Source: Methanohalobium evestigatum Z-7303
Lineage (GTDB): Archaea; Halobacteriota; Methanosarcinia; Methanosarcinales; Methanosarcinaceae
Direction: 5' to 3'
DNA length: 64,000 bases
Assembly: GCF_000196655.1 (NCBI RefSeq)
Contig: NC_014253.1
Location: 1,815,423-1,879,422, forward strand
Shown in pieces: positions 35,752-60,008 of this stretch. Numbering within the stretch: the first letter of the stretch is position 1; every line of letters begins with the position of its first letter. The notes under the pieces were generated by a model, which saw only the letters and a list, made by a program, of their open reading frames with translations, searched no databases and was not told the origin of the DNA. The translations under genes and the position numbers were made by a program.

Positions 35752-36314
35752 ATGCTGACTGCTCTCTCACGAGTAAACTCGTGAGGTTCTCTTGAACCTT
35801 GAGAGCCTCAACCTTTGGCGAGGTCGAGCATTTGCTGGTTCATCGGCGGTACTTGCGAACCGATGCCAAGACCGTTCGTAGAGGTACCATCTCCACAGCC
35901 GTTCATTCCCGCGAGCCCCACGGTATACCCTGATGGCTTATACGTTTTTAAACTATATAAATTATCCTAATGATAGCGATTTTAATGTTTATAATAAAAC
36001 ATATCAAAGATCAACGGGGTTGTTTCATCCAACGGTTAGAACAGGCTGTCCGACAATTAATATTAAAGTGGATATCTTATACAAAATGACCTACCAAGTA
36101 ACATAAATTATCAGTCCTGATTGTTTCTCTTATATCAAGTGACAGCATCCGTGACTGGTTTTTAGATTATTGGATAAATGCTATTAATACATAAATTAAT
36201 TTTTAACCTATATTTATTTCAATAAGAAATAAAAATAGATTGACAGTATCGAATTGTCGGACAAGCTCTATAAACCGTTGGCTTTCACGTACCCCTGTTG
36301 CCCCATCCTCGTAA
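35752..36314 (-). mobile_element. decayed IS1341/TnpB-type element: left end and 3' end of tnpB
   Basis: Minus-strand order is left end, then tnpB tail, then right end. The left end carries GATGGGGCAACAGGGG and one arm of the AACGGTT/AACCGTT hairpin, which is split by an insert. At 35877-35924 the minus strand encodes TVGLAGMN followed by GCGDGTST, the C-terminal signature of TnpB proteins, and the frame closes soon after. Downstream are hairpins CTCACGAGT/ACTCGTGAG (35766-35785) and AGGTTC/GAACCT (35784-35799), as expected for the right end or omega-RNA. The body of tnpB, including RuvC motifs, is deleted. The segment is far richer in GC than its surroundings. A TTAC (35-strand complement at 36311-36314) flanks the left end. 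Confidence 0.75.
36041..36270. mobile_element. MITE-like insertion inside the left end of the decayed TnpB element
   Basis: About 230 bp without coding potential, bounded by imperfect terminal inverted repeats that share a perfect 12-bp core: TGTCCGACAATT at 36047-36058 and AATTGTCGGACA at 36252-36263. It interrupts a hairpin that is intact in the related copy at 59914-59930, which gives independent evidence of insertion. The repeat style resembles termini of IS5/IS1182-like elements, but no transposase is present, so it would need one in trans. Target duplication cannot be assigned with certainty. Confidence 0.7.
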
Positions 36315-56160: not shown

Positions 56161-56234
56161 ATTTTTAAATAATTGTTAACCCGTTGTCAACTTGATGTTG
56201 ACAATGTTGATATAAAATTTTAGTGGTTAACAAT
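56161..56234 (+). promoter_or_regulatory. bioY promoter with nested palindromes (candidate biotin repressor operator)
   Basis: A TATA-like TTTTTAAATAA (56162-56172) is followed by two nested perfect inverted repeats. The outer repeat is TTGTTAACC (56173-56181) with GGTTAACAA (56225-56233). The inner one is TTGTCAAC (56184-56191) with GTTGACAA (56197-56204), 5-nt spacer. The half-site agrees with the reported BirA-type biotin operator half TTGTTAACC, and the last repeat abuts the start codon. Binding by a BirA-type repressor encoded elsewhere would shut off the biotin transporter operon when biotin is plentiful. The assignment rests on sequence similarity and context. Confidence 0.7.
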
Positions 56235-56783
56235 ATGGATGGCGATGAATCAGAAACAAATATAACCGGTTCTTCTGAAATAAAGAAAATGGTTTTTGCG
56301 TCCCTTTTTGCAGCAATGACTGCAATAGGTGCATATATGAAGATTCCTATTGGTCCTGTTCCTATCACATTTCAGGTTTTGTTTGTATTTCTGGCGGGGT
56401 CTATACTTGGCAAAAAATGGGGCCCCCTTAGTATGATTGTCTACATACTTCTGGGTGTTGCCGGATTACCAGTTTTTGCCGGTGGTGCTTCTGGTATCGG
56501 TGTCCTGTTTGGACCTACAGGTGGTTATATCATAGGATTTGTTCTTGCCACCTTTGTTATCGGGATGCTGACAGAAAAAGTAAAATCTGCAGGTTTAGTT
56601 CTAAACAGCTTTTACATGATTATCGGATTAATTATAATTTATACACTGGGTGCAACACAACTTATGATTGAAGCACAGCTTGAACCAATCGAAGCAATTA
56701 TGTCAGGTGTCGCTCCCTTTGTAACCGGTGATTTAATATCAATATTGATTGCTGCATATATCACCACAAAATATGAGATATAA
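56235..56783 (+). CDS. bioY: biotin-binding ECF transporter S component BioY
   Basis: About 182 residues with six hydrophobic segments. The BioY core motifs are plain: KIPIGPVPITFQVLFVFL, LGVAGLPVFAGGASG and FGPTGGYIIGF. It binds biotin in the membrane and works with the EcfA-EcfA'-EcfT energising module encoded immediately downstream. ATG at 56235 is used. A GTG at 56223 is also in frame but would lie within the operator. Confidence 0.95.
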   Translation: MDGDESETNITGSSEIKKMVFASLFAAMTAIGAYMKIPIGPVPITFQVLFVFLAGSILGKKWGPLSMIVYILLGVAGLPVFAGGASGIGVLFGPTGGYIIGFVLATFVIGMLTEKVKSAGLVLNSFYMIIGLIIIYTLGATQLMIEAQLEPIEAIMSGVAPFVTGDLISILIAAYITTKYEI

Positions 56784-56785
56784 AA

Positions 56786-57616
56786 ATGATAGATATCAAA
56801 AATCTGGTTTATCAATATGAAAGCAACAGTAAATACCCGGTTTTGAACAGCATAAACCTTCAGGTTAAAAAAGGCGAATTTGTATCAATAGTAGGAGAAA
56901 ACGGATGTGGAAAATCAACTCTTGTACAGCACCTTAATGCTATACTTATCCCTTCAAAAGGAACTGTGCAGATTGAAGGTTTAGATACAAAAAAACAATC
57001 CAACATATGGTCTATACGACAGAAGGTGGGGATGGTTTTCCAGAACCCCCAATCCCAGTTTATAGGTACTACTGTTCAGGAAGACGTTGCATTCGGACCT
57101 GAAAATCTGGCACTCTCCAACCATGAAATTCGAACCAGATTGGATGATGCACTGGAACAGGTAGGAATGTTGGATTTTAAAGAATACAACCCTATGTCAT
57201 TAAGTGGTGGACAAAAACAATGTGTAGCTATTGCCGGTGTACTGGCTATGAAACCCGAATACATTGTTCTGGACGAAATAACTTCCATGCTTGATGATAA
57301 ATCGCAAAAAACGATATTTGATATCATGAAATATCTCCAGAAAAACGGAATAACGATAATCTATGTCACACACAGGATAAAAGATGTCGTCAATTCCGAC
57401 CGGATTATTGTGTTATCAAAAGGCAGTATCCTGTATAATGACAAACCTCAAACGGTTTTAAAAGAACCTTCTCTTCCAGAATCAGGGATTGAAATACCTC
57501 CCATAGTAGAACTTGCCAACAAGCTGGAAAAAGATGGGATTATAGATACATATAATAACAAATATCTGCCTTTTTCAAATAAAGAGCTTCTGGAGGATTT
57601 ATGTCAATCAATATAA
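56786..57616 (+). CDS. ecfA1: ECF transporter ATPase A1
   Basis: 276-residue ABC ATPase. Walker A GENGCGKSTL, Q-loop NPQSQFIG, signature LSGGQKQ and a Walker B LDEITSMLD. The replaced glutamate-proline (DEIT instead of DEPT) is seen in several EcfA proteins. It starts two bases after the bioY stop and overlaps ecfA2 by 16 bp. It forms the heterodimeric motor for biotin uptake with EcfA2. Confidence 0.95.
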   Translation: MIDIKNLVYQYESNSKYPVLNSINLQVKKGEFVSIVGENGCGKSTLVQHLNAILIPSKGTVQIEGLDTKKQSNIWSIRQKVGMVFQNPQSQFIGTTVQEDVAFGPENLALSNHEIRTRLDDALEQVGMLDFKEYNPMSLSGGQKQCVAIAGVLAMKPEYIVLDEITSMLDDKSQKTIFDIMKYLQKNGITIIYVTHRIKDVVNSDRIIVLSKGSILYNDKPQTVLKEPSLPESGIEIPPIVELANKLEKDGIIDTYNNKYLPFSNKELLEDLCQSI

Positions 57617-58416
57617 AAAACGTAGACTTTTCCTACAATAAAAATACACAACTTGAAACCCGTGTACTTGAAAACATAAATCTGACAATAGATAAAAACG
57701 AATTTGTAGGCATAACAGGCAAAATCGGTTCCGGGAAATCAACTCTGATAAAATTGTTTAACGGTTTATTTGTACCAGATAATGGATATGTTTATGTTGA
57801 CGGGGCGGATGCTTCAGATAAAAAAACCAGAAAAAAAGTGGGATTGCTGTTCCAGAACCCACATGACCAGATTTTTTCTAAAACCGTTTATGAGGAAATA
57901 GCCTTTGCTCCGTCCAATTTCGGAATTAGAGGTGATGAGCTGACTGAACGTGTCCATGAATCCCTTCACCTTGTAGGTTTAGATACAAAAATAACTGATA
58001 TTTCACCTTTTAAGTTAAGCGGTGGAGAGATGCGCAGAGTAGCTCTTGCAGGTGTTCTGGCTATGAAACCTGAATATCTTATTCTGGATGAACCTACATC
58101 AGGCATGGACATAAAAGGTAAAAAAGAACTCTATTCAAACCTAAAAAAGATACACGGTACCGGAACATGTGTTGTTATTGTCTCTCATCAAATTGATGAT
58201 TTGCTGCCTTTGGTGAATAAAATTGTACTGATGGATAATGGAAAAATTACATTTGCCGGAACACCTTCTGAATATCTTGAAAATATAAGTTCACCTGTTC
58301 CTGAAATCACCCAACTTATGCAGGGGCTTAAAAGTAAGGGATTTAACGTACGAAATGATGTATTAACAGTTGACGATGCATACGAACAAATTAGAAAACT
58401 GCTGACGAAAAAATAG
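57601..58416 (+). CDS. ecfA2: ECF transporter ATPase A2 (ends in UAG)
   Basis: 271-residue ABC ATPase: Walker A GKIGSGKSTL, Q-loop NPHDQIFS, signature LSGGEMRR, Walker B LDEPTSGMD. The translation ends at a TAG (58414-58416), the only UAG terminus I find among the 62 complete genes of the window. The frame continues without a shift into ecfT through a second TAG at 58423-58425. TGGAGG precedes its ATG. Pairs with EcfA1. Confidence 0.95.
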   Translation: MSINIKNVDFSYNKNTQLETRVLENINLTIDKNEFVGITGKIGSGKSTLIKLFNGLFVPDNGYVYVDGADASDKKTRKKVGLLFQNPHDQIFSKTVYEEIAFAPSNFGIRGDELTERVHESLHLVGLDTKITDISPFKLSGGEMRRVALAGVLAMKPEYLILDEPTSGMDIKGKKELYSNLKKIHGTGTCVVIVSHQIDDLLPLVNKIVLMDNGKITFAGTPSEYLENISSPVPEITQLMQGLKSKGFNVRNDVLTVDDAYEQIRKLLTKK

Positions 58417-58430
58417 AGGGTGTAGTCACT

Positions 58431-59208
58431 ATGCACAGCTTTTTTTTTTAATTATGTTCCGGGAAATTCATTAATACATCATCTTGACCCAAGAACTAAA
58501 TTATTAGCCGTTATGGTTGCAAGCATATTCATATTCAATGCTGAAACTTTTTCAGAACTGATTACAATTGCAGGGTTTTTTGTTATAATTACTTTTATTT
58601 CAGGTGTTAATTACAGGATATTTTTTAAATCACTGCGCCCCATGTCCCTATTTTTTGTTTTTCTGTTTTTTATTCAACTATTTTTAAGTGACGGCAAACC
58701 AATATTTACAATCGGATTTATTAATCCCACTTATGAAGGTTTAATAACAGGGCTACAGATAACAACCAGATTCATATTTTTGATTCTATTTGCATCTCTT
58801 CTCACTGCAACAACTCAGCCGGTTATGATTACCAGTGGGATTGAAAGGTTAATCCGCCCCCTGCCTTTAAAATACATAGGGATTTCATCGTTCGACATTG
58901 CAACCATGATGTCACTTTCCATCAGATTTATTCCACTTTTGTTTGATAATGCAAAAAAAATACAATATGCACAAATGTCTCGAGGTGTGGATTTTAAACA
59001 TAATATTTTCAAAAGCTTTTCATCGGTAGCTGTTCCGTTGATAATGAGTACAAAGCGTACTGCCCAGGACATAGCTATCGCAATGGAGAGTCGATGTTAT
59101 CAGGGAATATATCGAACTTCTTTGTTCGAACTTGAAATGAAGAATGCAGACTGGACAGTTCTGTCAGGGATTTCTGTAATGGTTCTGCTTTTTATGTTTT
59201 TAATTTAA
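58431..59208 (+). CDS. ecfT: ECF transporter transmembrane protein EcfT; start region disrupted by a T10 run
   Basis: Membrane scaffold that couples the ATPases to BioY. Five or so hydrophobic segments and the coupling motif region (MESRCYQGIYR) are present. The conserved N-terminus FNYVPGNSLIHHLDPRTKL is encoded from 58447 in a frame with no proper start. The ATG at 58431, which has a GAGGGTG ribosome site, would read MHSFFF and then stop because the run at 58440-58449 has ten T residues. Nine T would join it perfectly. The first legal in-frame ATG is 58513, which would delete the conserved N-terminus. Transcript slippage, UAG readthrough or a sequence error are the options. Confidence 0.85.
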
Positions 59209-59265: not shown

Positions 59266-59586
59266 ATGGATTATAGAGAATGTGAGCGTTTAGATGAAGA
59301 ACTGATAAAAAGTTTGGAATCGTCAGCTCCTGATGATAACACTATTTCAAAAATGTCCAGAGTGTTTCAAGCTCTCCAATCCAAAAGTCGATTAAAAATC
59401 CTATTGATACTTTCTAAAAAAAGTATGCGTGTCTGTGAAATGGTATATGCACTTGGTATGTCACAGTCTGCCATTTCACACAGTCTTAGGGTTTTGAATT
59501 ATCTTGACCTTGATAGAATGGATAAAAGAGGTAAAACTATATATTCTATCGCAGATGAGCATATTCTGACGTACTCCAACGGATAA
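59266..59586 (+). CDS. ArsR-family transcriptional regulator, C-terminus reshaped by transposon end
   Basis: 106-residue winged-helix repressor. The recognition helix region MSQSAISHSLRVLNYLDLD and wing KRGKTIYSIADEHI are standard. A CEMVY motif gives one possible metal-sensing cysteine in the alpha-3 region, with further cysteines not forming a full CVC site. The stop codon lies inside the hairpin of the decayed TnpB element (ACGGAT/ATCCGT at 59576-59589). The last few residues (about TYSNG) are therefore transposon sequence and the C-terminal helix is probably truncated. Likely regulates the downstream permease. Confidence 0.88.
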   Translation: MDYRECERLDEELIKSLESSAPDDNTISKMSRVFQALQSKSRLKILLILSKKSMRVCEMVYALGMSQSAISHSLRVLNYLDLDRMDKRGKTIYSIADEHILTYSNG

Positions 59587-59961
59587 ATCCGTAGGGTTGT
59601 GTGGTCACCATCCATCTTGACGTTGCCACTTGCGGGGCGCCAGTACTCCCGTACGATGCATCTCTGTCTGCACCGCATCGTTTGTGCTCGACACCAGGCA
59701 ATGTTTGGTAGAACCTGATGATACACAAACAACCGACTGAACAATGTCTTACATCAGGCAGCTTGCTCAAAGCAACTGTACACTGAAAGCATTGCTACAT
59801 CTATAATACTGTATATACTATACAAAAATAAAAAAATATTGGTTCAAAAAACAATAACCAACGGGGTTGTTTCATCATTCTTTAAACTTCGTTTAAAGAT
59901 GTCTTTTAAAGAAAACGGTTAGAAACCGTTGGCTTTCACGTACCCCTGTTGCCCCATCTTC
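59570..59961 (-). mobile_element. decayed TnpB-type element between arsR and the permease gene
   Basis: The left end at the high-coordinate side has GATGGGGCAACAGGGG (minus strand). It also has hairpin AACGGTT/AACCGTT (59914-59930), hairpin TTTAAAC/GTTTAAA (59881-59897), and GATGAAACAACCCCGTTG shared with the copy near 36.0 kb. The low-coordinate side (59590-59770) is GC-rich and ends in hairpin ACGGAT/ATCCGT, as expected for tnpB tail and right end. However, I could not read a convincing TnpB protein there. Most of the gene is missing. A TTAC on the minus strand (59962-59965) borders the left end. Confidence 0.65.
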
Positions 59962-60008
59962 GTAACTCTTATTGACATGTGCATGGAACATATTACGGAG
60001 CAGTAAAC

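Follow-up and report, generated by a model that had tools for sequence, protein, structure and literature searches.

Two in-frame UAG codons and a displaced ecfT start suggest a possible pyrrolysine-dependent EcfA2–EcfT fusion in Methanohalobium evestigatum

In the pyrrolysine (Pyl) methylamine methyltransferases MtmB, MtbB and MttB, an in-frame UAG within one conserved gene is read as pyrrolysine, and the mtbB and mttB genes of the Methanohalobium evestigatum genome carry such in-frame TAG codons. Kivenson and colleagues (Science, 2025) have reportedly described an archaeal ‘Pyl code’ in which all TAG codons are read as Pyl, and the genome analysed here shares with it that TAG is nearly missing as a gene end and is present inside ordinary genes. 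The locus that we describe differs from the methyltransferases in that two UAGs lie between genes (that is, ecfA2 and ecfT) that are separate in relatives, and we know of no Pyl code case in which two genes are joined through Pyl with loss of the downstream start; among the literature matches listed, none concerns a Pyl-made gene fusion by its title. A second comparison can be made with genes rescued by slippage (for example, those of endosymbionts and IS elements, and Thermus dnaX), with which ecfT shares a one-base excess in a long T run near the start of an intact gene, although ecfT has a parallel open route through the UAGs and is known from sequence alone. The third comparison is with ECF modules (BioY, EcfA, EcfA' and EcfT), whose gene content and order are shared by the M. 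evestigatum operon; the difference would be that here an ATPase and the T component form one chain. Fused A1–A2 ECF ATPases have been described (PMC6828968, in the part available), and the available portions of the literature on fused ECF components contain A–A fusions only and no A–T fusion. Likewise, no A–T fusion occurs among the listed T-component matches in 149 genomes of the class, in which the largest open frame is 400 aa. Pyl reading, T-run slippage and ECF modules are each already known separately.

The window (that is, the whole stretch of 64,000 nucleotides that was analysed) sits in contig 1 (2,242,317 bases) of the 2,406,232-base genome and contains an operon with the gene order bioY, ecfA1, ecfA2, ecfT, the features of which are the following.

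56223-56783, plus strand: bioY, S component of a biotin-type ECF transporter (Pfam PF02632, E 2.5e-42)
56786-57616, plus strand: ecfA1, ECF ATPase (TIGR04520, 336 bits, above the cut-off)
57601-58416, plus strand: ecfA2, ECF ATPase with a TAG end (TIGR04521, 312 bits, slightly below the cut-off of 330)
58414-58416, plus strand: first UAG (from the sequence)
58416-58422, plus strand: Shine-Dalgarno (SD)-like GAGGGTG ahead of ATG 58431 (from the sequence and the sister alignment)
58423-58425, plus strand: second UAG, in the ecfA2/EcfT frame (from the sequence)
58431-58433, plus strand: ATG at which ecfT started ancestrally, out of frame in this genome (in-frame ATG in relatives)
58440-58449, plus strand: run of ten Ts disrupting the frame of ATG 58431 (from the sequence; nine Ts in the sister)
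58450-59208, plus strand: conserved body of ecfT (NYVPGNSLIHHLDPRTK...), intact, with no in-frame start upstream (PF02361, E 1.4e-42)

The ecfT product is an ECF T component (EcfT/CbiQ) on the basis of its PF02361 score (146 bits versus a gathering score of 25), and it matches the solved T components 4hzu, 4huq and 5d3m at E 7e-36 or better; its score falls below the cut-off of the narrower TIGR02454 (CbiQ) model (85.5 versus 111.8 bits).

The first-pass annotation of this DNA had ecfA2 and EcfT in one frame with two UAGs and no other stop between them, and this matches letter for letter. The 3' end of ecfA2 reads AAA AAA TAG, followed by AGG GTG TAG TCA CTA TGC ACA GCT and then by TTT TTT TTT AAT TAT GTT, and the frame stays open until the EcfT stop TAA (59206-59208), such that eight sense codons lead from the second TAG to conserved EcfT. 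From the second TAG to ATG 58513, the EcfT frame contains no ATG, GTG or TTG. The ATG at 58431, which had been named together with its ribosome site as a competing start, lies in a different frame that encodes MHSFFF and then ends at TAA 58449-58451 because of the ten Ts at 58440-58449. Synthesis of complete EcfT needs reading of the UAGs, slippage at the T run or absence of the tenth T. Two further start codons were considered and rejected. GTG 58420, previously offered as an EcfT start, has as its only SD-like bases a GAGG abutting it without spacing, is followed directly by UAG and is used as a start by no relative; ATG 58513, as a main start, lies inside the conserved protein and would remove the NYVPGNSLIHHLDPRTK segment that relatives conserve. 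We also rejected a local RNA structure promoting UAG reading, as 58396-58520 folds no better than shuffled sequences do (z 0.04), and a scan for sigma-70 and hairpin-terminator signals, which covered no archaeal signals, found none at the junction.

In this genome, UAG acts as a sense codon, being depleted as a gene end and internal to conserved genes. The window holds 60 greedy open reading frames (ORFs) of 100 aa or more, which end in TAA (42), TGA (17) or TAG (1), the last of these being ecfA2, which had correctly been singled out as the sole UAG-ending gene here. A sample of 864 kb (36% of the genome), made up of the window plus 40 stretches taken at intervals along the chromosome, contains 747 such ORFs, which end in TAA (520), TGA (214) or TAG (13); in the sample from the sister species introduced below, 4 of 354 ORFs are UAG-ended. 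The 13 TAG ORFs comprise mtbB and mttB (in which the TAG is internal), three copies of a TnpB transposase, a SAM-methyltransferase and a PAS/GAF protein (both with an internal TAG), the end of an amino-acid kinase, ecfA2 and four short ORFs of unclear standing. Beyond the stop, an open frame of at least 60 codons follows 6 of 12 TAGs, 48 of 516 TAAs and 18 of 212 TGAs in the 864 kb (6/12 for TAG versus 66/728 for TAA and TGA together, Fisher p 0.0004; these counts leave out one TAG and six TAA/TGA ORFs that run off their stretch).

Within this set, the SAM-methyltransferase gene (L108:10732-11535; contig 1 1160732-1161535) is conserved and has one internal TAG, at the site of which four homologs of 62-66% identity carry E, M, T and M without a stop, and a distant homolog has K. 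The PAS/GAF sensor-like protein (L100:17849-19999) has its TAG within a conserved cysteine-rich stretch, where E and D stand in two proteins of the sister species and E in a distant protein from G003. Both of these conserved genes lie outside methylamine metabolism, although for each alone the internal UAG may be a nonsense mutation. The methyltransferase is in its own right a candidate Pyl protein outside methylamine metabolism. The TAG-ending TnpB (IS605 OrfB) copies lie at L100:6332-7564, L116:18145-19377 and L090:9112-9561, the L100 copy being named from an ending in common with the scanned L116 copy; the frame of the L116 copy continues via two TAGs to a 464-aa ORF without a Pfam match.

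The decoding machinery is present. Profile matches identify pylB (523 bits) and pylS (367 bits), pylC and pylD are the ORFs neighbouring pylB (assigned from order and sequence), and a tRNA with anticodon CUA lies directly upstream of pylS (L094:2969-3037, minus strand; L001); with these five components, the genome has the gene set of a Pyl-decoding archaeon. The species is listed as a Pyl user in the available part of one paper (PMC3639795). The location of pylS, approximately 0.6 Mb away from pylBCD in a split pyl cluster, agrees with the interrupted M. evestigatum cluster reported in the available part of another (PMC3941956), in which low amber use in such methanogens is described as codon avoidance. 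UAG as a sense codon in this genome, and with it the link to pyrrolysine that was at first a conjecture, is supported by the pyl machinery, the depletion of UAG at gene ends, the internal TAGs of conserved genes and the more frequent continuation of frames past TAG.

Comparison with the nearest relative, a Methanohalobium sp. MAG (G001; hereafter the sister, with EcfT 94% identical), shows what has changed at the junction. The sister has nine Ts, and its ATG CAC AGC TTT TTT TTT AAT TAT runs directly into EcfT, while its ecfA2 stop is TAA and lies in a different frame from ecfT. The operon alignment (3,199 bases, 95% identical) contains just two gaps of one base each, both at the ecfA2–ecfT junction: an extra G (AGGTG to AGGGTG) and an extra T (T9 to T10), which are jointly required to bring EcfT into the ecfA2 frame. 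Together with TAA versus TAG, these two gaps are the exact differences that leave UAGs alone between ecfA2 and EcfT. Because of the inserted G, the SD match for ATG 58431 is weaker (4 bases here versus 5 in the sister). For the extra G and the TAA/TAG difference, the sister comparison cannot polarise which species changed.

For the T run, the wider family supplies the direction. EcfT matches were found in 52 of 60 genomes, and loci were built for the best 30 of these matches; the junction set (38 loci, that is, 30 plus 8, minus four same-contig duplicates and minus the window) comprised 33 distinct relatives. All 33 have an in-frame EcfT ATG, which in 31 precedes the NYVPG motif by exactly six codons, the position that ATG 58431 takes with nine Ts, and in the remaining two by seven and three codons. 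On the basis of this in-frame ATG in other relatives, the frame of ATG 58431 is ancestral and the T-run change took place in this genome: ATG 58431 is the ancestral ecfT start, put out of frame here by the extra T. The ribosome-site competitor proposed earlier therefore survives as the ancestral start but not as one that is in frame as the sequence stands. In the 32 of 33 relatives in which it was resolved, ecfA2 stops at TGA (19), TAA (11) or TAG (2); the two TAG-ending genes belong to one genus and are followed by an independent ATG 117 and 149 bases further on. In most family members, the ecfA2 stop overlaps the ecfT start by 1 to 8 bases, which indicates that close coupling of the pair is the normal state. 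A joined ecfA2–ecfT frame was not seen in any of the 33 distinct relatives examined. Given that all relatives have an independent ATG, the putative fused frame would be no older than a recent event confined to this lineage, and is not a conserved readthrough or fusion device. The junction comparison for which the first-pass annotation had called thus speaks against an ancestral fusion, as separate genes with non-UAG stops dominate; the UAG-read EcfA2–EcfT fusion suggested there is still a live hypothesis, because UAG acts as a sense codon, although its frame is not conserved.

We suggest, with a probability of roughly 0.4 (the probabilities for competing readings were set by judgement), that EcfT now arises mainly as the C-terminal portion of a fused EcfA2-Pyl-Arg-Val-Pyl-EcfT chain; still more tentatively, the pyrrolysine code may have made a natural fusion of an ABC ATPase and its membrane partner, with the downstream start lost. 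tRNA-Pyl would decode both UAGs, and the product would be one 535-residue polypeptide, EcfA2-KK-Pyl-R-V-Pyl-SLCTAFFF-EcfT, with Pyl residues at positions 272 and 275 of the fused chain. Since UAG is hardly ever a gene end, UAG reading would be the default and a single chain of 535 residues its expected outcome. As a possible history, the ecfA2 stop may have mutated to UAG, which in a Pyl-reading cell would amount to stop loss, after which slippage in the T run would have joined the ecfA2 and EcfT frames and the independent ecfT start would have been left to decay. With the length of the T run irrelevant to the start, the run would be free to drift, which could account for a break beside a rare UAG end. 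The function of the fusion, the reach of its linker and the efficiency of UAG reading are putative.

The coincidence needed to produce such a junction by chance can be approximated. Adjacent same-strand genes in one frame are ordinary (113 of 419 close pairs in the 864-kb sample), but TAG-only same-frame links are rare, with four in that sample: mtbB, mttB, one TnpB transposase and the ecfA2–ecfT junction. The chance per junction is approximately 0.3%, that is, the product of a UAG end (at most 13/747), a matching frame (1/3) and 0.57 (the chance that 11 codons include neither TAA nor TGA). As the site was originally picked for its UAGs, these are not countable as independent evidence, whereas the T-run break of the ATG 58431 frame is evidence independent of that choice, and the original UAG-based selection did not bear on whether the downstream gene had lost its start, as at most 6 of 136 ORFs have. 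Against the fusion stand the lack of any relative with a joined frame, the lack of an A–T fusion among the T-component matches listed for the class, the location of the break in a ten-T run (a classic site of error or slippage), the persistence of ATG 58431 with a usable SD, and the consideration that nearly all of the purifying selection on ecfT could predate the change.

That selection is evident from the gene itself. Relative to the sister, ecfT has a dN/dS of 0.17, the lowest among five measured genes (bioY 0.29, ecfA1 0.21, ecfA2 0.38 and one neighbour gene 0.42; an arsR-like gene was left out of the scoring owing to gaps), and its body contains no stop and no second lesion. The low dN/dS and the intact frame indicate that EcfT is under purifying selection as a protein that is still wanted, and they rule against an old ecfT pseudogene; without a second lesion, the break at the start is either young or bypassed. 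Alternatively, the allele may simply be broken, such that this strain makes no EcfT, through drift in a biotin-supplied culture or through a phase-variable T run, and the fused frame is coincidental. The loss of the ecfT start, the weakened SD and the ability of a T run of nine or ten to flip length are all in keeping with this, but the intact, constrained body is not, and the depletion of UAG makes fusion likely anyway; we regard a broken allele as the most improbable of the explanations weighed here.

In another reading, the ten Ts are real and EcfT is still begun at ATG 58431, either because RNA polymerase slips and some of the transcripts carry 9 or 12 Us (giving partial full-length EcfT) or because the ribosome slips +1 at UUU UAA, with the UAGs incidental. 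The ten Ts stand immediately after MHS, UUU UAA permits perfect +1 re-pairing of tRNA-Phe, EcfT is intact and constrained, and an A/T run of at least nine lies at the frame break (T10, 58440-58449), as in slippage genes; slippage would likewise let the T run drift, without any need for the UAGs. Slippage at A/T runs of nine or more is known in bacteria, including the correction of endosymbiont frames (PMC1088944, in the part available), and for a few archaeal genes frameshifting has been either shown or predicted (PMC5009743 and PMC8211752, likewise in part). However, U-tracts in archaea serve termination, as described for Methanococcus maripaludis in the available part of PMC8716108, no archaeal case was found in the available portions of the literature on transcriptional slippage in archaea, no run is conserved across the family, and the rare UAG end of ecfA2 is left unexplained. 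Production of EcfT from ATG 58431 in this way seems to us unlikely, if a serious competitor. EcfT begun at this ATG would be expected to release MHSFFFNYVPGNSLIHHLDPR on tryptic digestion, whether or not Met is retained, or HSFFFNYVPGNSLIHHLDPR, in which Met or one additional F may also be present.

The T run could also have been misread. Ten-base homopolymers are the commonest place for sequencing errors, and a spurious tenth T introduced during sequencing or assembly would mean that the run is really nine Ts long, that EcfT begins at ATG 58431 just as it does in the sister and that UAG decoding adds only a short tail to EcfA2. The ATG at this position in the sister and other relatives speaks for such an error. 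The genome has four T/A runs of ten, none longer, and 25 runs of nine, and 12 of these 29 runs lie inside intact ORFs, which argues against it. Over 141 kb aligned to the sister, no ORF-breaking gap was flagged at runs of at least six (the gap scan and the 15-nt phase test miss ecfT, which is just nine bases out of phase), and 6 of 136 ORFs, ecfT included, are more than 15 aa shorter here than in the sister, the other five looking mostly like start choice. Widespread homopolymer errors in the assembly can be rejected, there being no sign of them over the aligned 141 kb; such errors are uncommon in the genome, although the T10 run itself is not thereby cleared. An error here would further need the coincidence of approximately 0.3% calculated above, namely a neighbour with a rare UAG end and a matching frame, and we consider it improbable.

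Should the UAG-read fusion be real, a changed genetic code would alter how genes fuse, and the locus would allow a clear-cut test of whether methanogens that read Pyl still use UAG as a stop. If it is not, the junction marks a place in a genus reference genome where either a homopolymer was misread or slippage occurs. Either way, the TAG-bearing ordinary genes suggest that the Pyl code is needed for annotating this genome.

Three observations concern the surrounding chromosome. A second EcfT-like stretch (contig 1 2204613-2205230) has an internal TAA and is perhaps a decayed T component. A dispersed repeat of approximately 0.4 kb lies at window 59565-59965, with many copies in the sister genome but missing at the sister's corresponding site, and an insertion of a dispersed repeat of approximately 0.56 kb (window 35754-36311) is also missing at the corresponding site of the sister.
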